DNA of 64,000 bases from Bryobacterales bacterium (GTDB lineage Bacteria > Acidobacteriota > Terriglobia > Bryobacterales > UBA6623): assembly GCA_026713545.1 (NCBI GenBank), contig JAPOOG010000046.1, positions 1 through 64,000 on the forward strand. The letters run 5' to 3'. The notes below the pieces were generated by a model that worked only from the letters and a program-made list of their open reading frames with translations, searched no databases and was not told where the DNA came from. Of the stretch, positions 2,757-64,000 are shown piece by piece. The first letter of the stretch is position 1. Each line of letters opens with the position of its first letter. Position numbers and translations under genes: made by a program.

Positions 2757-4811
2757 CTAATCGTCATCATCATCGTCGTCATCGTCGTCATCATCATCAT
2801 CGTCGTCATCGTCGTCGCCATCCCCGTCGCCGTCGCCATCCCCGTCGCCGTCGCCATCCCCGTCGCCGTCGCCGTCCCCATCGCCATCCCCGTCACCGTC
2901 GCCATCACCATCCCCATCGCCATCCCCGTCGCCGTCGCCGTCCCCATCACCGTCCCCATCACCATCCCCATCCCCGTCGCCATCACCATCCCCATCGCCG
3001 TCCCCATCCCCGTCGCCGTCACCATCGCCGTCGCCATCACCATCCCCATCGCCGTCCCCATCGCCGTCGCCGTCACCGTCACCATCGCCGCCACCGTTTC
3101 CATCATTTTCATTGCCGCCTGACGGGGTCCGTGGTGGACGCACTGCTGAATCATTCGGGTTGCTCGGAGTCGGCGGTGGAGGAGGCGGCGGCACGTTCAC
3201 GGGATCTTGCGGCACCAACACCGGAGATGTCGTAAAGGTGCGCTTCGCGGCATCCGTTTTCATGGCTACTGCGGTAAACAACCCCTCCCCTGGTGAGGTG
3301 CAGTGCACCAACCCCAGGAAGTCCGACGTGTCTGCAATGGTGAACGCGTCTTGGATCAACCAGGACGTCTGCCCGTTGCCCGCCAGAGAAAAGGGAATGG
3401 CGTCGATCAGCACGCTCTCTTTCTTCAATTCGCACCACACCAGCTCCGAACTCGATTCCAGATTGTGAAGCGATACTCCGGTGTTGATTCCTCCTTTCTT
3501 GTGGCGCACTGGCAAGAGTGCGTCGGTAACAGGCAGGCTAGCTCCCACCCTGGTCACTCCGATGTCGGGATGCTCAATCCGGAGCATCCCACTGATAGGA
3601 CCGTCCGAAACCACTCTCACGGATCCCGTCACCGGTTCCCCTCGGCCATGAGTCGCAATCGTGAGCACTCCCAGAGGCTTCATCTCCGTTTGGACGGTCA
3701 GAGCGCCGTCCTCCGCGACGTCCAGATCGCCCGAGATGTCCACCAACGTTTCGGCGGCAATCAGATCGCCCTGCGTGTCATAGAAATAAATTTCGGGACG
3801 GCTCGCAAGAACGCGGGGGTGAAAGGGAGTGCGGCCGGGACCGCTTTGCTGTGTCTCCGTGTTCAGGAACTCCAGATGGGTGATCCAAGTCCCGTTGGCG
3901 AAATGAGCAAAATCCAGTACTGTCTGCCGATTGCTGCTTCCAATCCGGACCACAGGGACCACCGAAAGCGCGTTGAAGATGCTCTTGGCGGCATCCACCT
4001 CCACAGCGATGGCGATAAAACGCCCCTCCTCGGAAGCCGTGCAGCGCACCGACCCCAGGAAGTCCGATGTGTCGGTCGTAGTGAACACGTCTTGGATCAA
4101 CCAGGAGGTCTGCCCGTTGGCTGCCAAGGGAATCTCCACCTCTTCGAGCGCTACGCCCCCGCTCATCAATTGGCACGTCACCCCCATTGGTTCCTCTTCC
4201 AGGTTGTGCAGGGCCGCCGCTGTGCTGATCCCACCCTCTTGGCGTTGCGCCAGGAAGACAACATCCTGGAAGGGCCAGCCGGCTCCAATCTCGGCGACTC
4301 CTACCTCCGGGATGCTGTAGCGCAGCAACCCTCCAATGGAACCGTTTGAAACCACTTGCAACGACCCCGACACCAGATCCCCTCGCCCATGAGTTGAAAT
4401 CGTGAGCTCGCCCAAGGATTCCATCTCCGTCCGAACGGTCAGGCCGCCGTCTTCTCCGATCTCCAGATCACCCACTTCATCGACTAACGCACCCGGGGCA
4501 ATGGGATCGCCACTCTGATCGTGAAAGTATATGGAGGGCCGGATCGGATGGGTAGACACATTCACGAGGACCAGATCGGACGTGATGCCGGTCCCATTGG
4601 CGAAATGTGCAAAGTCCAGAGTTCCCACGCCCTCTGTGGCCCCTGCCCTTTTCGAAAGGGCGCCCAGAGCGACGCACGCGGCGAGGAGCAATGAAAGCGC
4701 ACGGATACCGCCCCGGCGCGGCAGCCTTGATGGGGGCGGAGTGTCGGAAGGCCGCGCTTTGGCCCCCGGTGCTTTCTCTGATATCCCGTAGTTACTCGTC
4801 ATCGTTCGCAC
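2757..4811 (-). CDS. Secreted two-domain protein with a long Gly-Asp and poly-Asp C-terminal tail
   Basis: A 684-residue protein with a basic N-region and a hydrophobic stretch around residues 36-50 (a Sec signal). Two homologous beta-rich domains of about 230 residues follow, the first starting at GTLDFAHFANG and the second near residue 300 at TVLDFAHFANG; each ends with a NGQTSWLIQD...TSDFLG block. A Pro/Asn linker leads to about 110 residues of almost pure (Gly-Asp)n ending in about 20 consecutive Asp before a TAG stop. Such acidic tails commonly bind Ca2+ or mineral surfaces. The DNA is a degenerate hexanucleotide-type microsatellite, so length polymorphism or assembly collapse is possible. 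The start is GTG at 4811 or ATG at 4802, with no clear ribosome-binding site. Function unknown. Confidence 0.8.
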   Translation of the reverse strand: MRTMTSNYGISEKAPGAKARPSDTPPPSRLPRRGGIRALSLLLAACVALGALSKRAGATEGVGTLDFAHFANGTGITSDLVLVNVSTHPIRPSIYFHDQSGDPIAPGALVDEVGDLEIGEDGGLTVRTEMESLGELTISTHGRGDLVSGSLQVVSNGSIGGLLRYSIPEVGVAEIGAGWPFQDVVFLAQRQEGGISTAAALHNLEEEPMGVTCQLMSGGVALEEVEIPLAANGQTSWLIQDVFTTTDTSDFLGSVRCTASEEGRFIAIAVEVDAAKSIFNALSVVPVVRIGSSNRQTVLDFAHFANGTWITHLEFLNTETQQSGPGRTPFHPRVLASRPEIYFYDTQGDLIAAETLVDISGDLDVAEDGALTVQTEMKPLGVLTIATHGRGEPVTGSVRVVSDGPISGMLRIEHPDIGVTRVGASLPVTDALLPVRHKKGGINTGVSLHNLESSSELVWCELKKESVLIDAIPFSLAGNGQTSWLIQDAFTIADTSDFLGLVHCTSPGEGLFTAVAMKTDAAKRTFTTSPVLVPQDPVNVPPPPPPPTPSNPNDSAVRPPRTPSGGNENDGNGGGDGDGDGDGDGDGDGDGDGDGDGDGDGDGDGDGDGDGDGDGDGDGDGDGDGDGDGDGDGDGDGDGDGDGDGDGDGDGDGDGDGDGDGDGDGDDDDDDDDDDDDDDDDDDD
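2760..3100 (-). repeat. Low-complexity GAT/GGC-type microsatellite encoding (Gly-Asp)n and poly-Asp
   Basis: On the plus strand this is an uninterrupted run of tcg/tca and ccg/cca triplets. It begins with GTC/ATC codon complements for Asp only and continues as alternating Gly-Asp complements. Synonymous third positions vary irregularly (gat/gac, ggt/ggc/ggg), so protein-level selection or ageing of the repeat, and not only recent slippage, has shaped it. It is the tail of the secreted protein above. Confidence 0.9.
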
Positions 4812-7621: not shown

Positions 7622-8392
7622 ATGCGTATTTTCGTCTGCGTGAAGCAGGTGCCCGCCGGCGACTCGCTGCTGCGTGTCGACGCTTCCTCCGGGCGGATCG
7701 ACGACGCGGGCTTCGGCTACGAGATGAACGAGCCGGACGCCTACGCGCTCGAAGAGGCGTTGCAACTCAAGGAAAAGCATGGTGGCGAAGTCGTCGCTGT
7801 CTCCGCCGGCCCGGCGCGGGCGGCGTCAACGATTCGCGAGGCTCTGGCGAAGGGTGCCGACCGCGGCATCCTCGTCGAGGATGACCGTCTTGCCGCCGCG
7901 GACGCCTTCGTGACGGCGCGCGCTCTCGCCGCGGCCATTCGCACTGAGCAGTTTGACCTGCTCCTGACGGGTCTGCAGTCCGACGACGCGGGCTTCGGCC
8001 AAACGGGCGTTCTGCTCGCCGAACTCCTCGGGATACCCCATGCGACGCTGATCGTGAATGTGCAGGTTGACGGCGGCGGGCTCCGTGTCAAGCGCGAGCT
8101 TGAAGCCGGCTGGTTCCAGCACATCGGCATCGACTTGCCGGCGCTGCTCACGATCCAATCCGGCATCAACAAGGTTCGCTATGCGACGTTGATGGGCATC
8201 AAGAGGGCCAGGAACAAGCCTGTGGCGCGTCACGACCCCGCGGGCCTCGGTGTCGATCTCTCGCCTGTTCAGACCGTCCGCCGCTTCTATATTCCTGCCA
8301 AGACCAAGCAGACCCAGATGATCGACGGCGTCGCCGCAGAGGCCGCCGCTGCGTTGATCGAGAAGTTGAAGTTCGAGGCGCGAGTGTTGTGA
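7622..8392 (+). CDS. etfB: Electron transfer flavoprotein subunit beta
   Basis: A 256-residue ETF beta subunit. With EtfA it forms the FAD-containing heterodimer that passes electrons from acyl-CoA and similar dehydrogenases to the quinone pool. The start MRIFVCVKQVP, the MNEPDAYALEEALQLKE segment, the nucleotide-binding loop GLQSDDAGFGQTG and the IQSGINKVRYATLMGIKRA region are all typical. It overlaps etfA by 4 bp (GTGA), so the subunits are translationally coupled. The following of fatty-acid synthesis genes by etfBA is a local arrangement, and no partner dehydrogenase is in the window. Confidence 0.96.
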   Translation: MRIFVCVKQVPAGDSLLRVDASSGRIDDAGFGYEMNEPDAYALEEALQLKEKHGGEVVAVSAGPARAASTIREALAKGADRGILVEDDRLAAADAFVTARALAAAIRTEQFDLLLTGLQSDDAGFGQTGVLLAELLGIPHATLIVNVQVDGGGLRVKRELEAGWFQHIGIDLPALLTIQSGINKVRYATLMGIKRARNKPVARHDPAGLGVDLSPVQTVRRFYIPAKTKQTQMIDGVAAEAAAALIEKLKFEARVL

Positions 8393-9369
8393 GTATTGTT
8401 GTCTTCCTGGAGCGGCAAGCCCGCGGCATCCACCCCATGTCCTGGGAAGCGCTCGCCGCCGGTCAGCAGCTCGCACGGGAACTCGACTCCCGCTTGTACG
8501 CGGTGGCCGCCGGCAGCGGCGGCGGACTCTCCGCGGCGGCATCGAAACGGCTTGACGGCGTGATCGCGCTCGAGAGTGAGGCGCTCGCGGAGTACTCTGC
8601 GGATGCCTGCTGCATCGCGCTGCGCGCCGTGGTCGAGAAGCTGTCTCCGACACTCGTTCTGTTTCCGCACACCTATCAGGTCCGCGACTTCGGGCCGAAA
8701 CTGGCGGCCTCGCTCGATCGGCCTTTTGTCAGCGACGCGGTCGCTGTCCGTCTCGAGGACGGTCAGCTCGTTTTCGTGCGCCAGGTCTACCAGGGCAAAC
8801 TGCACGCGGACGTGACGCTCAGTGGGGAGCCGCCTTTCTTCGCGTCGCTGCAATCCGGTTCCTTCCGTGCGGACCATCTGCAAGACTCCGCCCAATCCGT
8901 GCCCATCGAAACGCTCCCCGTCGAGATCGACCCCGCTCGGCTCCGCACTCGCCCCGAACCCGCGTTTCAGGAATTGAAGGGTGAAGTCGACCTGTCTTCC
9001 GCCGGGATCATCGTCTCGGTGGGCCGCGGGATCAAGAGCGAGGAGAACATCGAGCTGGCCCGCGAGCTCGCCGCCGCCATCGGCGGAGAACTCGCCGCCT
9101 CCCGGCCGATCTGCGATAACGGCTGGCTGCCGCTGGAAAGGCAGATCGGCAGCTCCGGCCAGACCGTTTCGCCGAAACTGTATCTGGCCCTGGGCATTTC
9201 AGGAGCCATTCAGCACGTCGTCGGCATGAAGGGCTCAAAGACGATCGTCGCCATCAATCGCGACCCGAATGCCCCCATCTTCGAAATCGCCGACTATGGC
9301 ATCGTCGGCGACCTCTTCGAGATCGTCCCGGCCCTGATCAAGGTCCTGCGTTCCTCCGCGCCGGCGTGA
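8389..9369 (+). CDS. etfA: Electron transfer flavoprotein subunit alpha
   Basis: A 326-residue ETF alpha subunit, GTG start inside the etfB stop (GTGA). The N-terminal domain pairs with EtfB. The C-terminal FAD-binding domain is intact, with GRGIKSEENIELARELAAAI, the SRPICDNGWLP stretch, GQTVSPKLYLALGISGAIQH and TIVAINRDPNAPIFEIADYG, which contact FAD in characterised ETFs. The length is normal. A dispersed repeat element begins about 50 bp after the stop. Confidence 0.96.
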   Translation: MSIVVFLERQARGIHPMSWEALAAGQQLARELDSRLYAVAAGSGGGLSAAASKRLDGVIALESEALAEYSADACCIALRAVVEKLSPTLVLFPHTYQVRDFGPKLAASLDRPFVSDAVAVRLEDGQLVFVRQVYQGKLHADVTLSGEPPFFASLQSGSFRADHLQDSAQSVPIETLPVEIDPARLRTRPEPAFQELKGEVDLSSAGIIVSVGRGIKSEENIELARELAAAIGGELAASRPICDNGWLPLERQIGSSGQTVSPKLYLALGISGAIQHVVGMKGSKTIVAINRDPNAPIFEIADYGIVGDLFEIVPALIKVLRSSAPA

Positions 9370-9420
9370 GTCTGCGCAAGACGGCCCGTGCGAGACGAAG
9401 ATTCCGATCGCTCCTATGTA

Positions 9421-9705
9421 GCCTGCCTGTCTCACCACGCGGCGAGGTGAAGTGAGTGAGAGGGCCGTCAGGACGAGGCGTGAGCCGGGCTGAGGAAAAA
9501 GGCGCGCGCAGGCGTACTTGCCAAATCGCCTCCTTCACTCCTCGGGTCACGAAACACGGCCTCTCCGGTTCACCGGCCATCAGACATTTCTTCTGGAGCG
9601 AACCAGCCCTCCGCCCATGGTTTTCACGAGACACGAAACACGAAACACGAATCACGGCCTTTTTACCGCCTGCTTCGACCGTCGCGTGGTGAGACATGCC
9701 GGTTA
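9421..9705 (+). repeat. Dispersed repeat, family A copy 1, with terminal inverted repeats
   Basis: A non-coding element of about 285 bp in the convergent gap after etfA. The left end reads TGTCTCACCACGCGGCGA and the right end TCGCGTGGTGAGACA, giving imperfect inverted termini. Inside are a segment at 9421-9480 that matches 14961-15020 at roughly 53 of 60 positions, a 60-bp box (9567-9628) shared with copies near 15.1, 25.1 and 63.4 kb, and a five-unit 7-bp array (CACGAAA type) at 9625-9659. No credible protein is encoded. Confidence 0.8.
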
Positions 9706-9996
9706 GGGCCGGCCTACGGCGCCTATACGGACAGGCTGCGCACGATCGGCGGCATCAAAGTCAAATTCACCGGAACCTGAGTTCCATGGCGATCTCCGAT
9801 GGGATCAGCCTCCACCCGCTCCGCCGGTCGATTTCAGACAAGCAGCACGGATTCTCGTTTATTGCTGGTTCGGGGCCAGCAACCCGGACTGGGCTGCTGC
9901 ATATCTTTCCAGCCACATTCCTCTGTGGGCCGTGAATAAGCACCTTAACGACTCCGCAGGGGGAGAACGGCCCGGACATGCAGGCGGTGCAGCCGT
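9706..9996. other. Intergenic region 3' of the first TonB receptor
   Basis: No gene seen. It holds one symmetrical hairpin, TTGCTGG and CCAGCAA around a 7-nt loop, at 9862-9882. This could mark the 3' end of the minus-strand receptor transcript, but there is no T-run on either side. Confidence 0.35.
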
Positions 9997-12900
9997 TCAG
10001 AACCGCACGCTGAGCCCCGCCTGCGCACGCCGGGTGTCGCCGAGCCCGCTGCGGAGCGAACCGTCGAAGTTGAAGAGGAGCGAGCCGACGGCGGGGTCGA
10101 CGAAGTTGTCGGCGTTGGTCAGGTTGAAGATCTCGAAGATCGGCTCAATGGCGGCGGCGCCGAGCGCGAATCGCCGCGACACCCGCAGGTCCCAGGATAA
10201 GAACCCATTCTGTCGACGTAGCGTGTTGCGCGTGAGGATCGAACCGTCGGCGCAGATCCGGTCCGCCGGCTGGACGGCCCGCTCGCCCCGGTTGGCGCAC
10301 TGCTCGGAGACCGGCGACGCTGACAGGTACCGCACGACCTGGTTCAACTGGACCTTCGCCGGGAGGGCGGCCAGCATGTACCCGCTCACCTGATGGCGCC
10401 GGTCTCGATCCGACCAGCCGTACTCGGGAGCCAGGTTGGCTGCGTGCGCGTACCTGAGCGTGAAGGGATCGCGCTCGTTGTCGTCGTCGGAGCGATCGAA
10501 CGCCAGCGTGTAATGGGTCTCGAAGGTGATCGGCCGGCCGCCGAGGCCGCTGCGCCCGCGCAGCCCCGCGGTAAGCGCGTGATAGCGGGAACGGGCGCTG
10601 CTCTCGGTGACGGTCAGCGTGTTGATGCCGCCGCCCGCCGGGTGCGTCCCGATCCCGAACGGCGCCCCCAGGACTGCGTCGTTGCGGTTGAAGAAGCGGA
10701 AAAGGTGGTCTGTGCGCGCGTGGATGTATCCGATGCTGGCAGCAACCCCGCGTCCCAGGTCGTGCTCGACGCCGCTGCTGAACGACCAGGTCCGCGGCAA
10801 CTCCAGGTCGCGGTCCGCCACCTGGATGTCCGGCAGGAACGGCGGCGCCCCCGAAGTGTCGATCTGCTCGTCGATGGCGGGGACCGGACCAAGCCCCCGC
10901 GCGCTGCTGCTGCGGAAGAGTGTCTGCTGGAACGCGCCGTTGGTCGTCCGGTGCTGGGCGAAGACGAGCATCGGGATACGGGCGACGTACGATCCGGCAT
11001 TGGCGCGCAGCACGGTGCGTCCGTTGCCGGCCAGGTCCCACGCCAGCCCGAAGCGGGGCTGCAGGTTGTCCAGGTCATCCGGAATCCGGCCGTCGGACGG
11101 AAACAGCGGATCGTCCAGATACGGAGCGAAGAAGGTTTCGGCCGGCTCGATGAAGACGTCCGGGTGCCATGTGCCGTCCCAGCGCAGCCCGATGTCCAGG
11201 GTGACCCGTTCGTGGGGATGCCACGTGTCCTGAACGAACACGCCCAACTCGTGCATCGGGAACTGCTGGCGTCCGAGCTGCTCCGCGGGGACGCCGGGGA
11301 CGGTCGCCGACTGCAGGTAGAGCAGAACCGGACCGGCGATTTCGGATCCGGGCGGACAGGCCCCGTGCATGTTGGTCGATCCGTCCGAGCAAGTGACGTA
11401 ACGGTCGCCGTGCGTGACGAAACCGATGAAGCCCTCGACCGAAGCGAACAGGTAGCGGCTGTTCGCCAACCCGAGGAACTGCTGCCCGACCCGGGTCCGG
11501 TTGTACTCCACTCCGGCCTTGACGAGGTGGGCTCCCTTGGCGAACGAGACGTTGTCTACTACCTGAAACCGCGTGTCGAACGCCGGATCGATCGGAAGAA
11601 AGAACGGCAGCCCGATGCGGAACCCGTCGGCGAAGTCCATGCCGATGTCGGGAAACGGCCGGCCGCCCAACTCGGCGAATTGGGGCGGACCGGGCAGGCC
11701 CGTGCCGGGGAGCAGCGGTCCCTGGTACCAGCGCGGCCGGTCCTCGCGCGCCATCTGCACGCGCAGTTCGTTCGAGAAGGCGTCGGTCAGTAGCGAGCGG
11801 AGACTGGCGTTGACCGCGTGCGAGCGGTCTCCCTCGATCCCGTTGGCCGATGCGCCCCACGAATCGACGTCGAAGGTGCCGTTTACCTGCTCCGACCAGG
11901 TGTAGTTGTACTTGAACGAAGCTTGGTGGCGGCCGTCGAGCGTCAGGTCGAGCTTGGCCAGCAGGGCCCTCGCGTCGTCGGTGCGCCGGATCGGCCCGAA
12001 CTCGTTGTCGAACAGGCCCGGCCAGCGCGCCTGCAGAAAGCGCTCGAGACGCTGCAGGTTCGCCGGGTTGTGGACATGGCGGGTCGCCTGCTTGGTCTCG
12101 GCCGCCGCCTGCTGGTCGTAGGCCAGGAAGAAGAACGCCCTGTCGCGCGCGAGCGGCCCGCCCAGTGTCGCGCCCAACTGGTTCCGATGGAAGTCGGGAC
12201 GCCCACCTCCGCGCGGCGCTGGAAACGGCGCGGCGATCTCGTCCCACTGGCCGAAGTAGTGGGCGGAGCCGGTCAGCTCGTTGGTTCCCGACTTGGTGAT
12301 CACGGTGACGAAGCCGCCGGCCGAGCGGCCGAACTCGGGGGTGGAGCCCTGGTTCACCACCACAACTTCCTCGATGGCGTCCTGATTGAACGTGAACGCC
12401 GGACGCTGCCCCCCGCGCTGCTCGCCGAAGAACGGGTTGTTGAAGTCCGCGCCGTCTACGATGAGATTGTTGAAGATGCCGCGCTGGCCGCTGATGTTGA
12501 GTTCGTCGCCGTCCGATCCCTGCGAGATCGACGTGCCGGGGGTGAGCAGCGTCAGGTTCAAGAAGTTGCGGCCGTTGCTCGGGATCCCATCGACAACATC
12601 CTCCAGTACGCGCTGCGAGCTGGTAACGTCTGCGGTGTCGAGCGTTGGCGGCAGCTCGCTGACGACGGTGACGGTCTCGGACGTCACGATCTTGAGCGCG
12701 ACGGCCAGGTCGAGCATTTCCCCGACGCGCAGCGTCGCACCCTCGATGCGCTCGGTGCTGAACCCGGCGGTCTCAACCTTCACGGTCAGATCGTACGTCC
12801 CCGGCGGCAGCAGCGTGCGCGCGAACGTCCCGGACGAAGAGGTCTCCACGGTGGTTAGCAAGTCGGTCTCCCGGTGCTGCAGCATAACGACCGCCCCAGC

Positions 12901-13227
12901 CACCGGATCGCCGAGCGGATCGCGGACCGTGCCGCGGATGATGCCGGTGGTCGTCCCGGTCTGCGCGGCCGCCTCGGTCGCGGTCTGATGGACCAGCATC
13001 GCGGCCGGCAACGCGGCGGCGATGGTGAAGACGAGCCGGAGCGGGACTCTGAAGCTGCAAGCGTTGGCAAGGGCTTGGCCCAGCCGCTCGTCAATCGAGC
13101 GAACAGAGCGGCCCTTGCTGAAACCGGGCAGCAGTTCCCGCTGCAGGGTCTCTCTTGTCGCTCTCGCAATCTCCAGCATGGCGCCGATACCAACCATAGG
13201 CCTCTCATTATCATGTGCTGCCCCCAC
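9997..13227 (-). CDS. TonB-dependent receptor, Oar-like, with carboxypeptidase-regulatory domain
   Basis: A predicted outer-membrane protein of about 1076 residues. After an N-terminal region with a hydrophobic stretch near residue 65 comes a carboxypeptidase-regulatory-like beta-sandwich (about 95-180, GIIRGTVRDPLGDPVAGAVV). A plug-like domain follows (IPSNGRNFLNLTLLTPGTS, FNNLIVDGADFNN, FGRSAGGFVTVITKSGTNEL), then a long TonB-type beta-barrel ending in Phe (LSVRF). Such Oar-like proteins are expanded in Acidobacteria and are thought to import glycans or peptides; the substrate is unknown. The start is unclear: GTG 13227, ATG 13197 and ATG 13179 are in frame and none has a good ribosome-binding site. 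The long N-terminus before the hydrophobic stretch is unusual. Confidence 0.88.
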   Translation of the reverse strand: MGAAHDNERPMVGIGAMLEIARATRETLQRELLPGFSKGRSVRSIDERLGQALANACSFRVPLRLVFTIAAALPAAMLVHQTATEAAAQTGTTTGIIRGTVRDPLGDPVAGAVVMLQHRETDLLTTVETSSSGTFARTLLPPGTYDLTVKVETAGFSTERIEGATLRVGEMLDLAVALKIVTSETVTVVSELPPTLDTADVTSSQRVLEDVVDGIPSNGRNFLNLTLLTPGTSISQGSDGDELNISGQRGIFNNLIVDGADFNNPFFGEQRGGQRPAFTFNQDAIEEVVVVNQGSTPEFGRSAGGFVTVITKSGTNELTGSAHYFGQWDEIAAPFPAPRGGGRPDFHRNQLGATLGGPLARDRAFFFLAYDQQAAAETKQATRHVHNPANLQRLERFLQARWPGLFDNEFGPIRRTDDARALLAKLDLTLDGRHQASFKYNYTWSEQVNGTFDVDSWGASANGIEGDRSHAVNASLRSLLTDAFSNELRVQMAREDRPRWYQGPLLPGTGLPGPPQFAELGGRPFPDIGMDFADGFRIGLPFFLPIDPAFDTRFQVVDNVSFAKGAHLVKAGVEYNRTRVGQQFLGLANSRYLFASVEGFIGFVTHGDRYVTCSDGSTNMHGACPPGSEIAGPVLLYLQSATVPGVPAEQLGRQQFPMHELGVFVQDTWHPHERVTLDIGLRWDGTWHPDVFIEPAETFFAPYLDDPLFPSDGRIPDDLDNLQPRFGLAWDLAGNGRTVLRANAGSYVARIPMLVFAQHRTTNGAFQQTLFRSSSARGLGPVPAIDEQIDTSGAPPFLPDIQVADRDLELPRTWSFSSGVEHDLGRGVAASIGYIHARTDHLFRFFNRNDAVLGAPFGIGTHPAGGGINTLTVTESSARSRYHALTAGLRGRSGLGGRPITFETHYTLAFDRSDDDNERDPFTLRYAHAANLAPEYGWSDRDRRHQVSGYMLAALPAKVQLNQVVRYLSASPVSEQCANRGERAVQPADRICADGSILTRNTLRRQNGFLSWDLRVSRRFALGAAAIEPIFEIFNLTNADNFVDPAVGSLLFNFDGSLRSGLGDTRRAQAGLSVRF

Positions 13228-13438
13228 TGCTGGCAGGAGGTGCCTCCAGGTCGTGTAGCCATCTTTACTGCCGCTTCTGGAATTCGTGTGGGAAGCTGGA
13301 GCGTCCGGCTAGACGTCGAGCCCTCTCGGATTGATGTAGTTTTTTTTGTGGAATCGCGCGCGGTATCGACCCGTGCGTTGGTTTGACACTACCGAAACGA
13401 GCCGATACGATCAGATCGTAGTTGCTGCCTCGCAAAAC

Positions 13439-13515
13439 GCGCTCGTAGCTCAGTTGGATAGAGCGTCTGGCTACGAACCAGAAGGTCGGGAGTTCGAATC
13501 TCTCCGGGCGCGCCA
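13439..13515 (+). tRNA. tRNA-Arg (anticodon ACG)
   Basis: A 77-nt cloverleaf with the CCA end encoded. The acceptor stem GCGCTCG pairs with CGGGCGC (one G-U pair). The D-arm has AGCTCAGTTGGATAGAGC. The anticodon stem CTGG/CCAG holds the loop CTACGAA, so the anticodon is ACG (read as ICG for CGN arginine codons). The T-loop has GTTCGAATC. It lies between the receptor gene and the BNR lipoprotein gene. Confidence 0.96.
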
Positions 13516-13679
13516 CTTGGCTTTTCGGGATCGATAACCGGTGGGACGACCGATCTGCCGAGTTTCACGAGATTCCCCGTCCCCTGCCGATAGGAAAACT
13601 CTCATTCTTTCCTGTCGGATCCGGAACGCAGATGCGCCGTGCTGCTTCCTATGATTCCGTTCGCGGTTGCGCTCATCTC

Positions 13680-14951
13680 ATGAATGCCTCCTTGAAGTGT
13701 TGGGTCACGTTCGGTTGCCTCGGGCTCATGTTGCTTGCGGGATGCGGAGCTGATGAAACTTCCACCGGCTTGCGTTCGGTGAACCGGTCTCCCGAGTTCG
13801 CATCCATGGCGCCTAACGGCGAGGTCGCCGTCCTCCGGGACGGGCGGAAGGTCGATGCCCTGCCGGCGGAATTCATCCCGCTGGACTACCCCGGCATGCC
13901 CTGGCGCGGCGACCCGGCCATCGGCATGAGTTCCGATGGGACGATCTACGTCGCGCTGTATGCCAGGATCTTCGTGTCCAATGACGGCGGACGTCAATGG
14001 GAATCCCGGACTATCGATGTCGAATCGTTCGAGCCGCCAGCAACCGGGAGGGCGAACTACGATTCGTTCGTCGTTCTCAGAGACGGGACGCTGCTGTGGG
14101 CGTACCATGCCCCGGAACACGAGACCGATTTTGTCGTCCGCAGCGTTGACGGTGGAAAGACGTGGCGGCCGTGGAGTCGCCTCGCGGACCGTTCTCCCTT
14201 CAGTTCAGCCGGCGGCAATCAGAATGGCATGACCGAGTTGGCGGACGGCACGATCCTCTGGCCGACACGTCTGGGTCCGTCCGGAAACGAACGCGAGCTG
14301 AACAACCCTTGGAGTGGTCCGGCCCACTGGACGACGTACGTCTACCGCTCGACAGACGCAGGACGGTCCTGGAAAGAGAAGACCCTGCTGCAGACCTGGG
14401 GCACCGAGACGAACCTGCTCGAACTCGCTTCGGGCCGGTTGTTGGCCGCCATCCGCTATCAACGTTATGCGCAAGCCCCTGCGCCGCCCAACGAGCCCGA
14501 AGAGTTGTCCGCGGCCGACCAGCAACAGGGCTCGGTTGGCAAGCGCGTCTTTCTGGCGGATTCGTCGGACGGGGGTTATACCTGGACGGACTTTCGGCCC
14601 GTCAGGAGCAACGCCGGCGGAGAGATGGACATCGCCTTTGGCGAGGCTCATGGACATCTGGTGCAACTGTCTGACGGCACGGTCGTGCTGGCGCATGAGC
14701 GGCGGTATCCCTACGAAGCAGGTGATGTCCGGGCGCGCGTGAGCCGCGACCAGGGGCGAACGTGGGCTCCGGAGGCGTACCGGTTGAGCCCCGGGCACGG
14801 ATATGCAGCAAGCGTCGTCCTTCCTGATGACACGATCGTCACTGCTCTCGGCAACACCCCCTTGAACGAGAAGGGCCGGCCCGTTGATGGCAATTGGTAC
14901 GCCCAGGTGGTTCGCTGGCGCCTGAACGACAGCGAATGGAATCAGCGGTAA
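13680..14951 (+). CDS. BNR-repeat (sialidase-like) lipoprotein
   Basis: A predicted lipoprotein of about 423 residues with a six-bladed propeller. The ATG at 13680 gives a normal signal peptide ending in the lipobox LLAGC; an in-frame ATG at 13632 would add 16 residues. At least five Asp-box motifs mark the blades: SNDGGRQW, SVDGGKTW, STDAGRSW, SSDGGYTW and SRDQGRTW. Sialidases and related exo-glycosidases share this fold, but the catalytic Arg triad and Tyr/Glu pair cannot be assigned by eye, so activity on sialic acid is not claimed. It probably sits at the cell surface and acts on or binds glycans. A family A repeat starts 10 bp after its stop. Confidence 0.82.
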   Translation: MNASLKCWVTFGCLGLMLLAGCGADETSTGLRSVNRSPEFASMAPNGEVAVLRDGRKVDALPAEFIPLDYPGMPWRGDPAIGMSSDGTIYVALYARIFVSNDGGRQWESRTIDVESFEPPATGRANYDSFVVLRDGTLLWAYHAPEHETDFVVRSVDGGKTWRPWSRLADRSPFSSAGGNQNGMTELADGTILWPTRLGPSGNERELNNPWSGPAHWTTYVYRSTDAGRSWKEKTLLQTWGTETNLLELASGRLLAAIRYQRYAQAPAPPNEPEELSAADQQQGSVGKRVFLADSSDGGYTWTDFRPVRSNAGGEMDIAFGEAHGHLVQLSDGTVVLAHERRYPYEAGDVRARVSRDQGRTWAPEAYRLSPGHGYAASVVLPDDTIVTALGNTPLNEKGRPVDGNWYAQVVRWRLNDSEWNQR

Positions 14952-14960
14952 CGGATGCCG

Positions 14961-15243
14961 GCCTGCATTTCTCACCACGTGGCGAGGCGAAGTAGGTGAG
15001 AGGGCCGTCAGGACGAGGCGCGAGACGCTTGACGAGCGCAGGTGTAGCGGCCTTATCGCTTCCTTCGGCCCTCGGGTTACGAAACACGAATCACGGCCTT
15101 TACGGTTCCCCGGGCCGTCAGACATCTCTTCTGGAGCGAACCAGTCCTCCGCCAAAGCTTTTTACTAATAACTGGCAACTAACCACTAACCACGGCCTTT
15201 TTCTCTCGTGCTCCGGCCGTCATGGGGTGAGAAATGCAGGTCG
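14961..15243 (+). repeat. Dispersed repeat, family A copy 2, with terminal inverted repeats
   Basis: About 283 bp filling the convergent gap between the BNR gene (stop at 14951) and the luciferase-like gene (stop at 15255). The left end GCATTTCTCACCACG and right end GGGGTGAGAAATGC are inverted. It shares its first 60 bp and the 60-bp box (15104-15165) with copy 1. At the place of the 7-bp array it carries a different unit: ACTAATA, ACTGGCA, ACTAACC, ACTAACC at 15164-15191. The element occupies nearly the whole gap. Confidence 0.8.
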
Positions 15244-15254
15244 GGATTGCGAAG

Positions 15255-16373
15255 CTAGCCGGAGCCGGTCTCAACCGATCCGTTCAGTCGTGGAGCCACT
15301 TCGTGGGCGAAAAGCTCCAGGCTGCGCTTCCATACATCACGATCGTCCCAGTCGTGGGCGACAAGCACCAGAGTTCCGAAGGGTCCGATGCGCTCGCGAA
15401 GCTGCAGGATCCGGCGGGCAACTTCCTCCGGGTCGCCGGCGATGACAACCTCGTTCGTGAAGTAGTCCAGATTGCAGTCGTCGTCGCTCATCTCCGGGTC
15501 GGGCTTCCAGATCGTCAGACCTGAGCCCGACGTGCGCTTGGTCAACTCCAGGATGTATTGAATGCACGAGCCCAGGGAATTCCTGCGGGCGAGTTCCCGG
15601 GCTTCGGCCGTCGTGTCCGCGACGAGGATGTTGCGGGATACGCTCCACTCCGACGGGTCGGCCGGGCGTTCCACCGAGGCTGCTCCTTCAGCGAACGTCT
15701 TCCATTGGGCGGCGAGGACCTCCTCGTGAAGCATATGGTGGCTGATGAGGCGAAACCCTCGGGCGGCGGCGGCCTTCAATCCCGCCGAGGCGCGGCTGAT
15801 GCCCGGGACGAAGATCGGCGGAGTCGGCCGTTGCATCGGCTTGTGAAGAGCCCCGATGCCCATTTCCGCATCAATGGTGTCGCTGAGCCGTACCTTCCAG
15901 AACCGTCCGTTTAGATCGTAGGGCGGATCGCTCGTCCAGATCTTCAGGATCATGTCGATCGCTTCGGCGACCCGCGCGCCGCTCTCCTGCGGATCGATGC
16001 CGTAAAGCTCCATGTCGGTAGCCACGGCGCCCGGACCGAAACAGACGTTCAACCGTCCGTGCGACAGATGGTCGAGAAACGCCAGCCGGCTCGCGACATG
16101 GGCGGGGGGATGGTACTGCAGGCAGACGGGTGCGGCGCCGACACGCATCGTTTTCGTCATGCCTAGCACCTTGCCGAGAAAGATCTCCGGCATGACGATG
16201 TTCTCGTAGCGCGACGAATGATGCTCGCCGACCCAGAAGTCTCGAAAGCCCGACTCCTCGCACTTCACCGCAAGCTCGAGATCTTCGTCGTAGCACTGCG
16301 CCAGGGGCTTCTTCGGGTCATGGATCGGCATGACGAACATGCCGTAGTTCAAAGCAGTGGATAGCACCATCAT
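15255..16373 (-). CDS. Luciferase-like (LLM class) flavin-dependent monooxygenase
   Basis: A 372-residue TIM-barrel enzyme of the bacterial luciferase superfamily, which uses reduced FMN and O2 to oxidise organic substrates. Conserved stretches include YGMFVMPIHDPKKPLAQCYD, GEHHSSRYENIVMPE and HVASRLAFLDHLSHGRLN. The ATG at 16373 sits beside GGGAGGA and gives exactly the length of the paralogue at 19090-20208, so the 30-residue upstream extension is rejected. It is third in a likely operon after the Nramp-like and cyclase-family genes (95 bp gap). The substrate is unknown; the context suggests a catabolic oxidation. Confidence 0.9.
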   Translation of the reverse strand: MMVLSTALNYGMFVMPIHDPKKPLAQCYDEDLELAVKCEESGFRDFWVGEHHSSRYENIVMPEIFLGKVLGMTKTMRVGAAPVCLQYHPPAHVASRLAFLDHLSHGRLNVCFGPGAVATDMELYGIDPQESGARVAEAIDMILKIWTSDPPYDLNGRFWKVRLSDTIDAEMGIGALHKPMQRPTPPIFVPGISRASAGLKAAAARGFRLISHHMLHEEVLAAQWKTFAEGAASVERPADPSEWSVSRNILVADTTAEARELARRNSLGSCIQYILELTKRTSGSGLTIWKPDPEMSDDDCNLDYFTNEVVIAGDPEEVARRILQLRERIGPFGTLVLVAHDWDDRDVWKRSLELFAHEVAPRLNGSVETGSG

Positions 16374-16468
16374 TCCTCCCGGACGGGGATCGCCGGCGGC
16401 CCGGAACAGGTCAGCGGCCTCTGATTCCGGGCGTGCGGCGGGAGGGCTTCGTAACCCGCTCACGAATA

Positions 16469-25120: not shown

Positions 25121-25392
25121 AAGGTTCACTGGCCATCAGACATTTCTTTCTAAAGCGAACCAATCCCCATCAAATGCTTTTCACGAGACACGAATCACGA
25201 GTGTCGAAACAGTGCATTGGGGTACTGAAGCCCTTCAGTCTTTTTTTTTTCGCCCAGGCCGGCATAGCATGAGGACAGAGAGGACGGAATCCGGACCTGA
25301 ATGTCTCACCACGTGGCGATACGAAGTGCGGGAGAGGGCCGGCGGGACGAGGCGCGAGCCGCCTGCGCCGGCAACTCGGCCGGTAACAAGGT
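25121..25392 (-). repeat. Dispersed repeat, family A copy 3 (inverted modules: box, array, terminator hairpin, head)
   Basis: A non-coding modular block in the divergent gap before the DUF1592-type gene. It holds the shared 60-bp box (25123-25185), a three-unit 7-bp array CACGAGA/CACGAAT/CACGAGT (25182-25202), a hairpin with poly-T (25224-25250) and the family head TGTCTCACCACGTGGCGA near 25303. The order of modules differs from copies 1 and 2, so the block is rearranged. Confidence 0.7.
25224..25250 (+). terminator. Terminator-like hairpin with ten T's inside the repeat
   Basis: ACTGAAG and CTTCAGT form a perfect 7-bp stem (25224-25239) followed by C and ten T's. This has the form of a Rho-independent terminator on the plus strand. 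The same hairpin recurs at 63578-63593 (poly-A on its left, so acting on the minus strand) and, with one mismatch, at 63031-63046. Confidence 0.6.
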
Positions 25393-25859
25393 TTTTCACG
25401 AAACACGATACACGGCCTTTTTCTCGCGTGCTTCGGCCGTCGAATGGTGAGAAATGCAGGTCAGGGTCGCATCACGAAAAACCGCCGCCCGGTCACTGTT
25501 TCCCGGTGCCCGTTCGCGTGGCATGGCGCGGCATCGCGCGGCAACGGGGCGCCCCGAGCGGCTGTCCGCGCACCGTCCGCAGCAGCAACACGGCCTTTAG
25601 GGTTTTTGCGAAACACGAATCACGGCTTCTATGCTTTTCACGAAACACGATACACGGCCTTTTTCTCGCGTGCTTCGGCCGTCGGGTGGTGAGAAATGCA
25701 GGTCAGGGTCGCATCACGAAAAACCGCCGCCCGGTCACTGTTTCCCGGCGCTCGTTCGCGTGGCATGGCGCGGCATCGCGCGGCAACGGGGCGCCCCGAG
25801 CGGCTGTCCGCGCACCGTCCGCAGTAGCAACACGGCCTTTAGGGTTTTTGCGAAACACG
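25393..25859 (+). repeat. 242-bp tandem duplication inside the repeat region
   Basis: Two near-identical direct copies with a 242-bp offset: 25393-25634 and 25635-25859, the second ending about 17 bp short. Differences are few, for example AATGGT against GGGTGG and AGCAGC against AGTAGC. Each copy begins with TTTTCACGAAACACG, contains the family A right end (TGGTGAGAAATGCAGGTC) and a GC-rich segment. Open frames across it are by-products of composition. Confidence 0.85.
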
Positions 25860-26167
25860 GACTTTACCGCCGCCCGGATCGCCGCGCCCGCCGCCCCCTG
25901 ACGACTTCCCTGCGAATCTTGACGGGGCCATTCTCGATATTCCGGGTTTATTGCCGCGTGAGAACGGGTCTTTGCCGCGTGAGAACGGGTTTTTGCCGCC
26001 TGATGACGACTTTTTACCGAATCCTAACGGGTCAATATCCCACAATTCTTCGGAATTCTTCGGAATTCTTCGGATACCCCCCGAGCCGCTGTCCGCGCTT
26101 CGTCCGCTGCCGCTCCCGTCGCCCTCCGAAGTGCTTCCGCAGCGGCGAACGCAAAATGAACCCATGC
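25860..26167 (-). repeat. Dispersed repeat, family B copy 1, with 10-bp and 21-bp internal arrays
   Basis: Read on the minus strand it starts at 26165 with ATGGGTTCATTTTGC, the conserved family B head (about 36 of 45 positions shared with 62599). It then has three exact AATTCTTCGG units (26044-26073 on the plus strand), four degenerate 21-bp units (25951-26033, TTGCCGCGTGAGAACGGG type) and a GC-rich tail GGCGCGGCGATCCGGGCGG. The tail is also seen at 62798 and 63247. Non-coding. Confidence 0.7.
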
Positions 26168-62596: not shown

Positions 62597-62980
62597 GGAT
62601 GGGTCCATCTTGCGATTGCCGCAGCGGCAGCAGCCCGGAGGGCGACGGGAGCCGCGGCGAACGACGCTCGTCGTGAGGACTGCCGAGAACGGCAGACGGC
62701 ACGCGGACACTGGCTCAGGGCAATATTTTTTAGTGAACAATAGCGAACAATAGTGAACAATGGCGAACAGAAGTGAACAGGAAAGCAGTGATTGTGCGAC
62801 AGGCGCGGCGGCCCGGGCGGCGGCTGTTGGTTGTGCGAACCTATCGCACCCACGTCGAACCGCATGGCGATAAAGGCCATGATGCATGTCTCGGGAAAAG
62901 CCGTGTTTCGTGTCTCGTATCTGGTGATTCGCGACCTGCACGGACCTTGCCTCACCACTTGGTGAGAAAGGCAGGCCGGG
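62597..62980 (+). repeat. Dispersed repeat, family B copy 2, with 10-bp array and a palindromic end
   Basis: Starts with ATGGGTCCATCTTGCGATTG at 62599 (family B head), then a Ser-codon-like GC-rich stretch and five 10-bp units at 62732-62781 (AGTGAACAAT type). A GC-rich tail (GGCGCGGCGGCCCGGGCGG) and GCCGTGTTTCGTGTCTCG-type 7-bp motifs follow. It ends at a palindrome CTCACCA-CT-TGGTGAG (62951-62966), which resembles two family A ends head to head. Non-coding. Confidence 0.7.
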
Positions 62981-63030
62981 ATTGCGCACCTCTGTCGTCA
63001 TGCCAGGCAGGCCGGAGCGGGGAAAACAAG

Positions 63031-63046
63031 ACTGAAGGGCTTCAAT
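63031..63046 (-). terminator. Decayed copy of the repeat-borne hairpin
   Basis: ACTGAAGGGCTTCAAT, one mismatch from a perfect stem, preceded on the plus strand by an interrupted A-run (GGGGAAAACAAG). The flank (GGCCGGAGCGG) matches the intact copy at 63559-63593. Confidence 0.4.
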
Positions 63047-63063
63047 ACCACGAGTTTCCGAGC

Positions 63064-63719
63064 ATGGGTTCATCTTGCGATTGCCGTAGCGGCAGCAGTC
63101 CGGAGGGCGCCGGGAACTGCGGCGATCGGCGCGAGGCCTGCCGAGAACGGCGGACGATGTGCGGAAACTGGCTCAGGAGTAAATTTTTTACCGGGAAATG
63201 GCGGGAAATGCGGGGAAGTGGTGGGTAGAGAAGCCGTAACTCGCAGGTGGGCGCGGCGGTCCAGATGGCGGTTTCTGGTCATTTTGTTTTTTGCGCCTTG
63301 CGCACCCACGGGGAACCGAACGGCCGTAAAAGCCGTGTTTGGTGTCTCGGGAATAGCCGTGTTTGGTGTCTCGTGATTCGTGAAAACCATTGGCGGGGGA
63401 CTGGTTCGATCCAGAAGAAATGTCTGACGGACGGTGAACCCCAAAAGCCGCGTTTCGTGATTCGCGTCTCGTGATTCGGGGTCCACACAGACATCGCTTC
63501 GCCACCTGGTGTTACATGCAAGGCAGGATTCCCGCCTCGCTGTATTCATGCTACGCAGGCCGGAGCGGAAAAAAAAGACTGAAGGGCTTCAGTACCAAGA
63601 TGCAACGTTTCTCCTGCCTGTCCCTGCCTCGCCGGCAGGCAGGCGGCAGACAGATGTTTCGTGATTCGGGTCTCGTGCCCCATGCGGACTTCGCCTCGCC
63701 GCGTGGGGAGACATGCAGG
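63064..63719 (+). repeat. Composite of family B copy 3 and inverted family A modules
   Basis: Begins with the family B head ATGGGTTCATCTTGCGATTG (63064), then three 10-bp units of the GCGGGAAATG type (63191-63220) and the GC-rich tail (63247). Family A modules then follow in reverse: 7-bp motifs, the 60-bp box (63381-63440), a head-like end (63489-63522), the hairpin module (63559-63593) and a second head (63688-63719). The last head ends exactly where the next gene's stop codon begins (63720). Non-coding; open frames across it are not supported. Confidence 0.7.
63571..63593 (-). terminator. Terminator-like hairpin with poly-T on the minus strand
   Basis: A perfect 7-bp stem ACTGAAG/CTTCAGT at 63578-63593 with an A-run directly to its left, so the minus-strand transcript would end hairpin-C-TTTTTT. 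It lies about 130 bp after the stop of the minus-strand TPR gene and could terminate it. Confidence 0.55.
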
Positions 63720-64000
63720 TCAGTTGATCGGCATGGACTGGCGTAACTCATCCGCAACGGCCATCTGCTTTTTGGCCAACGCGGGCCGGTTGGTCCTGTG
63801 ATAGATGCGCGCAAGTTGAAAGTGGGCTTCGTAGTTCCTTGGATCCATGTCGATGGCGCGCTTCAGCGTGTTTTCGGCCACGAAGTAGCGCTCCTGCTGA
63901 GAATACACTTTCGCCAATAGCACATAGGACCGAGCGGACCGCAGGTTGAGCCAAATGGCTCTCTGCAGCGGATCGACCGCTTCATCGAATCTTCCCAGCC
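63720..64000 (-). CDS. TPR-repeat protein, C-terminal part (gene continues beyond the window)
   Basis: The minus-strand frame is open to the window edge and encodes about 92 residues, so the N-terminus is outside. The visible part is tetratricopeptide repeats: LGRFDEAVDPLQRAIWLNLR, SYVLLAKVYSQQERYFVAENTLKRAIDMDP and NYEAHFQLARIYHRTNRPALAKKQM. The GTG at 63923 is internal and is not a start. A family A repeat head begins right after the stop codon. Confidence 0.85.
   Translation of the reverse strand, partial: LGRFDEAVDPLQRAIWLNLRSARSYVLLAKVYSQQERYFVAENTLKRAIDMDPRNYEAHFQLARIYHRTNRPALAKKQMAVADELRQSMPIN

Follow-up and report, generated by a model that had tools for sequence, protein, structure and literature searches.

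Heptamer direct repeats, TAACTGA among them, are known from Beggiatoaceae, Cyanobacteria and Bacteroidetes as short intergenic arrays, which in Beggiatoaceae lie just before start codons. Different units are mixed within one array, and strains differ from each other by steps of 7 nt (PMC4679880). Miniature transposons (MITEs) with internal tandem arrays have likewise been described in Porphyromonas gingivalis, where the two types BrickBuilt and MITE464/PgRS have near-identical ends that match a resident IS5-type insertion sequence, different internal repeats of 23 or 41 bp, and roughly 10-20 copies (PMC4596501).

The window considered here, a stretch of 64,000 nucleotides from a Bryobacterales genome, carries two full copies of a dispersed repeat, family A, that recalls both systems. 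These repeats are non-autonomous MITEs with 17-bp inverted ends and 4-bp YTRR target duplications, and heptamer arrays are their cargo. A single degenerate heptamer, MACKRDN, covers both unit types of these arrays, and TAACTGA, when rotated to AACTGAT, fits the same grammar; no mobile carrier was identified for the TAACTGA repeats, however (PMC4679880). In contrast to those repeats, the units here are CACGAAT, CACGAAA and CACGAGA or [CA]ACTA[AT]C, and both window copies sit between convergent genes. The P. gingivalis elements are bounded by GAGACCTT(C/T)GCA and have 23- or 41-bp units (PMC4596501), whereas the consensus end here is CCTGCATTTCTCACCAC and the heptamer unit is 7 bp; the present family also differs in its IS1380-type ends, its hundreds of copies, its 7- and 10-bp units of common degenerate grammar and its clean 4-bp duplications. 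Among the papers searched, none described an IS1380-derived MITE with arrays. The earlier note on this DNA, which knew of no named element with this design, was half right: the repeat can be classed as a MITE whose ends resemble those of IS1380, and other MITEs that carry tandem arrays inside are on record (PMC4596501). The widespread, unexplained heptamer arrays of bacteria thereby gain a concrete vehicle in one genus, in the form of hundreds of MITEs. Together with a likely transposase and a sister species for site-by-site comparison, this makes the origin, spread and change of the arrays testable.

Table 1. Family A elements, their parts and neighbours, and decamer arrays in the window
Feature	Position	Strand	Sequence or remark
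MITE copy 1	9422..9702	+ (head to tail)	281 bp
Copy 1 left neighbour	8389-9369	+	ETF alpha gene
Copy 1 right neighbour	9997-13227	-	TonB-dependent-receptor-like gene
Copy 1 left flank	9418..9421		GTAG (YTRR-like target)
Copy 1 right flank	9703-9706		TTAG
Copy 1 left terminal repeat	9422..9438	+	CCTGCCTGTCTCACCAC
Copy 1 array slot 1	9548..9554	+	single CACGAAA unit, then CACGGCC
Copy 1 conserved box	9575..9606	+	GGCCATCAGACATTTCTTCTGGAGCGAACCAG, 32 bp
Copy 1 array slot 2	9625..9652	+	CACGAGA CACGAAA CACGAAA CACGAAT (G-type), then CACGGCC
Copy 1 right terminal repeat	9686..9702	-	GTGGTGAGACATGCCGG = CCGGCATGTCTCACCAC read inward
MITE copy 2	14962..15240	+ (head to tail)	279 bp
Copy 2 left neighbour	13632-14951	+	BNR-repeat gene
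Copy 2 right neighbour	15255-16463	-	luciferase-like monooxygenase gene
Copy 2 left terminal repeat	14962..14978	+	CCTGCATTTCTCACCAC = consensus
Copy 2 array slot 1	15078..15091	+	TACGAAA CACGAAT (G-type), then CACGGCC
Copy 2 conserved box	15113..15144	+	GGCCGTCAGACATCTCTTCTGGAGCGAACCAG, 32 bp
Copy 2 array slot 2	15163..15190	+	TACTAAT AACTGGC AACTAAC CACTAAC (T-type), then CACGGCC
Copy 2 right terminal repeat	15224..15240	-	GGGGTGAGAAATGCAGG
Third family member, shortened	25296..25460	+	begins larger composite repeat reaching ~25859
Decamer array	26043..26074	+	ATTCTTCGGA units
Decamer array	62731..62780	-	ATTGTTCRCT type; degenerate composite, family-like end ~62950-62976
Decamer array	63192..63228	-	ATTTCCCGCC type; composite also with family A box and G-type array pieces (63358-63464)

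Family A elements and their likely mobiliser

The two full copies with inverted termini that had been noticed from the sequence were recovered, with true ends slightly beyond the CTCACCACG first given, at 9422/9702 and 14962/15240 (Table 1). Their ends take the form CCTGC(A/C)T(T/G)TCTCACCAC...GTGGTGAGA(A/C)ATGC(A/C)GG, and an end-to-end alignment of the two copies spans 291 columns at 74.6% identity (within-window E = 7e-51). The longest open frames inside them are 93 and 81 codons. That they belong to a dispersed family, and do not resemble each other by chance, was borne out in the 5.6-Mb genome of the window (G000), in which copy 1 finds 53 matches at E <= 0.001, 41 of them at E <= 1e-48. 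The terminal repeat CCTGCATTTCTCACCAC, at no more than one mismatch, occurs 467 times in G000 and about twice as often in a sister species (974 in G001); nine further matches lie in G002 and none in the reversed-pattern control. The element had no match in any of 58 further genomes that belong to the same family and order.

Statistics for individual copies were drawn from samples of 0.83 Mb (G000) and 0.28 Mb (G001). The former contains 99 end pairs that delimit elements of 34-541 bp, among them an array-free class of 176, 187 or 197 bp, an array-bearing class of about 220-290 bp, composites reaching 541 bp and, at 34-66 bp, end-only miniatures. One 66-bp miniature (L075, ~3353-3418, on contig C98 of G000) consists of two MITE ends around a short unrelated middle, and thus very different interiors can occupy the space between the ends.

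Both flanks of the elements conform to YTRR. Of 84 elements, 18 have exactly the same 4-mer on the left and on the right, where shuffling gives 6.6. The duplications of the window copies themselves are imperfect (GTAG/TTAG for copy 1 and CCGG/TCGG for copy 2). Orthologous places were found in G001 by flank mapping, and several are clean empty sites at which the 4-mer stands once, as at C48_38615 (TTAG), C98_12546 (CTAA) and C48_159850 (a single YTAG). The family therefore has the features by which MITEs are recognized, namely terminal inverted repeats, target duplications with empty sites, short length without a transposase, many copies, and ends matching an autonomous element.

Such an element is found in the sister species, which has two intact IS1380-type insertion sequences, L266 and L288 (on C109 and C121), with a transposase that matches DDE_Tnp_1_4 at E = 4e-148. 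They are flanked by the 4-bp duplications CTAA/CTAA and CTAG/CTAG, respectively; their ends are CCYGCATTTCTCACCAGCGG and CCCGGATATCTCACCAGGGG, and the left end of L288 is identical to the MITE end at 16 of 17 positions. The MITEs resemble the IS1380 family (Pfam DDE_Tnp_1_4), as represented by L266 and L288, in having ends of the form CCYGSAT..CTCACCA and 4-bp YTAR duplications. They differ from it in the lack of a transposase and in that only the terminal 16-17 bp are common to MITE and insertion sequence, and thus simple internal deletion of these copies does not account for the MITE. Two more genomes of the family contain IS1380-type insertion sequences with similar ends and CTAG duplications (L267, L268), while the copies in G000 are decayed fragments, with similar ends that are again flanked by TTAG. 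On this agreement of ends and targets, the IS1380-type insertion sequences of G001 are the likely mobilisers of the MITEs in trans. No convincing autonomous copy was seen in the 0.83-Mb sample among terminal repeat pairs 0.7-4 kb apart.

Other transposase families were also considered. The target sequence of IS5 and IS701 is YTAR. The IS701-type transposase (DDE_5, PF13546) is absent from G000, and PF01609 is represented there by a decayed IS1380 copy and one fragment, with no MITE-matching ends beyond the IS1380-like ones.

Heptamer and decamer arrays

The strict 7-bp period reported for the window copies holds across the genome sample, where lags from 2 to 30 were compared: period 7 gave 27 arrays in 0.83 Mb, and no other lag gave more than nine. 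Of these 27, 23 have a terminal repeat within 600 bp. The arrays of slot 2 occupy the same place in both window copies, with GGTTTT or GCTTTT before them and CACGGCC after them. Read in the register set by these flanks, the typical units, CACGAAA and CACTAAC, are identical at five of seven positions, the differences being confined to positions 4 and 7. Two unit types do occupy one slot, as the earlier note proposed, and unit sequence varies while length stays at 7; the swap is nevertheless milder than it had appeared, since the "ACTAACC" unit is CACTAAC rotated by one base. Copy 2 combines a G-type array in the upstream slot with a T-type array in the downstream slot.

The in-register arrays number 158, of which 139 are pure G-type (CACGA[AG][AT], chiefly the three units named above) and eight pure T-type; three mix G and T, and eight have other fourth letters. 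One mixed array reads CACTAAC AACTAAC AACTATC CACGAAT, and the intermediate units CACGAAC and CACGATC also occur. Across whole genomes, the T-type pattern has 18 matches in G000, five in G001 and none in the control. Arrays are always oriented head to tail (80 to 0), and the dominant order, CACGAAT CACGAGA CACGAAA CACGAAT, recurs in 23 of them, which points to inheritance by copying.

As such, the heptamer grammar also occurs outside this genus. A degenerate five-unit pattern matches at least 119 stretches over GTDB genomes in many phyla, and arrays of at least five units occur in Cyanobacteria, Bacteroidota, Proteobacteria, Planctomycetota, Acidobacteriota and others. Among the matches listed, 126 arrays were parsed into 98 T-type, 21 G-type and seven mixed. 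The exact T-type array followed by GGCCTTT gave no outside match in a search of GTDB genomes that may leave out near genomes. In two Acidobacteriota MAGs (L201 and L208), arrays mix T-type with G-type units, e.g. CACTAAC CACGAAC.

A second class of array is built from decamers of the pattern ATTNNNCRSN, with 89 matches in G000, 32 in G001 and none in the control, and occurs in composites together with family A pieces. At least six unit types can be told apart by positions 4-6 (TCC, GTT, GCC, CTT, CGT and CCC). Adjacent decamers agree at these positions in 83% of cases (27% when shuffled), but at positions 8-10 in 23% (13% when shuffled). Slippage or conversion by whole units should homogenise both halves of the decamer, and thus neither obviously explains coherence at 4-6 with variation at 8-10. 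This position-specific coherence is a clear and countable pattern, unpredicted by simple slippage. Although it concerns a different array family, no other observation hints as strongly at the re-templating first suspected for the heptamers.

Replacement of interiors and origin of array variety

Where both species carry an element at one site, the ends are conserved and the interior is often different, as at L006, C98_11708, C48_167369, C37_70510, C102_61299 and window copy 1, although some of these elements could have inserted independently at the identical YTRR target. The sole T-type array common to both species (C138_30753) has stayed T-type, with a difference of one unit. On a tree of the non-array head, box and tail, the five T-type copies need five changes, which is the maximum. 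Support is weak, with three starred branches, and so poorly resolved a tree of short elements stays compatible with T-type arrays having arisen once. Interior replacement at shared sites, the one retained T-type array and the scatter of T-type copies together point to exchange of modules with gain and loss of units. The interior is modular, holding either a 176-197-bp array-free core or cassettes of box and array, the latter laid out as GGTTTT, heptamer array and CACGGCCTTT. Array types would differ where modules have been swapped by recombination or conversion among the many dispersed copies, which have GGTTTT, CACGGCCTTT and the in-array CAC in common. Whole units would then be gained or lost by slippage, by which the 7-bp register would be kept. 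From comparison of present-day copies, as opposed to observation of the event itself, exchange of modules with unit gain and loss fits best, and we consider it probable that these are IS1380-ended MITEs with modular interiors whose array variety arose in this way.

Array variety could instead descend from one ancestral heptamer by gradual substitution and homogenisation within each array (concerted evolution), with no exchange between copies. Units in register do differ at just two of seven positions, and intermediates and mixed arrays exist. Concerted evolution nonetheless leaves the T-type copies unclustered on the non-array tree, the wholesale replacement of interiors at shared sites and the failure of variable positions 6-7 to homogenise inside arrays unaccounted for, and the mixed array quoted above joins a G-type end to a T-type run near-identical to one at another locus; we regard this course as rather unlikely. 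Replacement of arrays was one half of what the earlier note suggested, and the replaced interiors lend it substance. The other half, active rewriting or re-templating of units in place at fixed unit length, would suit the presence of two unit types in one slot with the period fixed at 7, the linkage of positions 4 and 7 between T- and G-type with few intermediates, and edge partial units that follow array type (CACGGC versus CACTGC endings, ctgCCCacg versus ctgTTCacg), as well as decamers coherent at positions 4-6 and barely above chance at 8-10. The intermediates and mixed arrays, the identical four-unit order in 23 G-type arrays and the type retained in the sole T-type array common to both species speak against it, nothing supports it directly, and it appears very unlikely. 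In its broader form, set positions would change together in all units of the 7- and 10-bp arrays of this genus, edge partials included, while others stay free. If true, this would speak for a sequence-coherent process of unknown kind, carried by IS1380-type MITEs, in which units are synthesised from a template or strongly co-selected by a factor reading every one of them; we hold that to be quite unlikely.

Host-conserved functional sites, such as structured RNA genes, terminators or regulator-binding arrays with transposon-like ends by coincidence, could explain why folding is stronger in both window copies than in shuffled sequence (z about -4), why arrays are 55% unpaired against 31% elsewhere in the element, and why the same heptamer grammar recurs in many phyla; a translational role has been proposed for TAACTGA heptamers (PMC4679880). 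Strong folding is expected, however, wherever inverted ends are long and imperfect, the gene-context bias is mild, and both presence and content vary between the sister species. The elements had no match in an Rfam 15 search at gathering scores, which returned only a tRNA at 13439-13512, and a functional origin is highly improbable. High copy number, intergenic position and palindromic parts would also suit elements of the REP/BIME type, which a Y1 (RAYT) transposase mobilises. Such elements make no target duplication, whereas the inverted ends and 4-bp duplications of family A match a DDE element of the IS1380 type, and a REP/BIME identity is scarcely credible.

Composite repeats elsewhere in the window

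The composites at 25200-25900 and 62900-63720 mix family A pieces and decamer arrays with a GGTACTGAAGCCCTTCAGTCTTTTTTTT hairpin module, and a 242-bp block is duplicated within 25393-25859. A long tandem repeat of 12/18 bp, of the CATCGCCGTCGCCATCCC type, lies at 2757-3154 inside overlapping reading frames.
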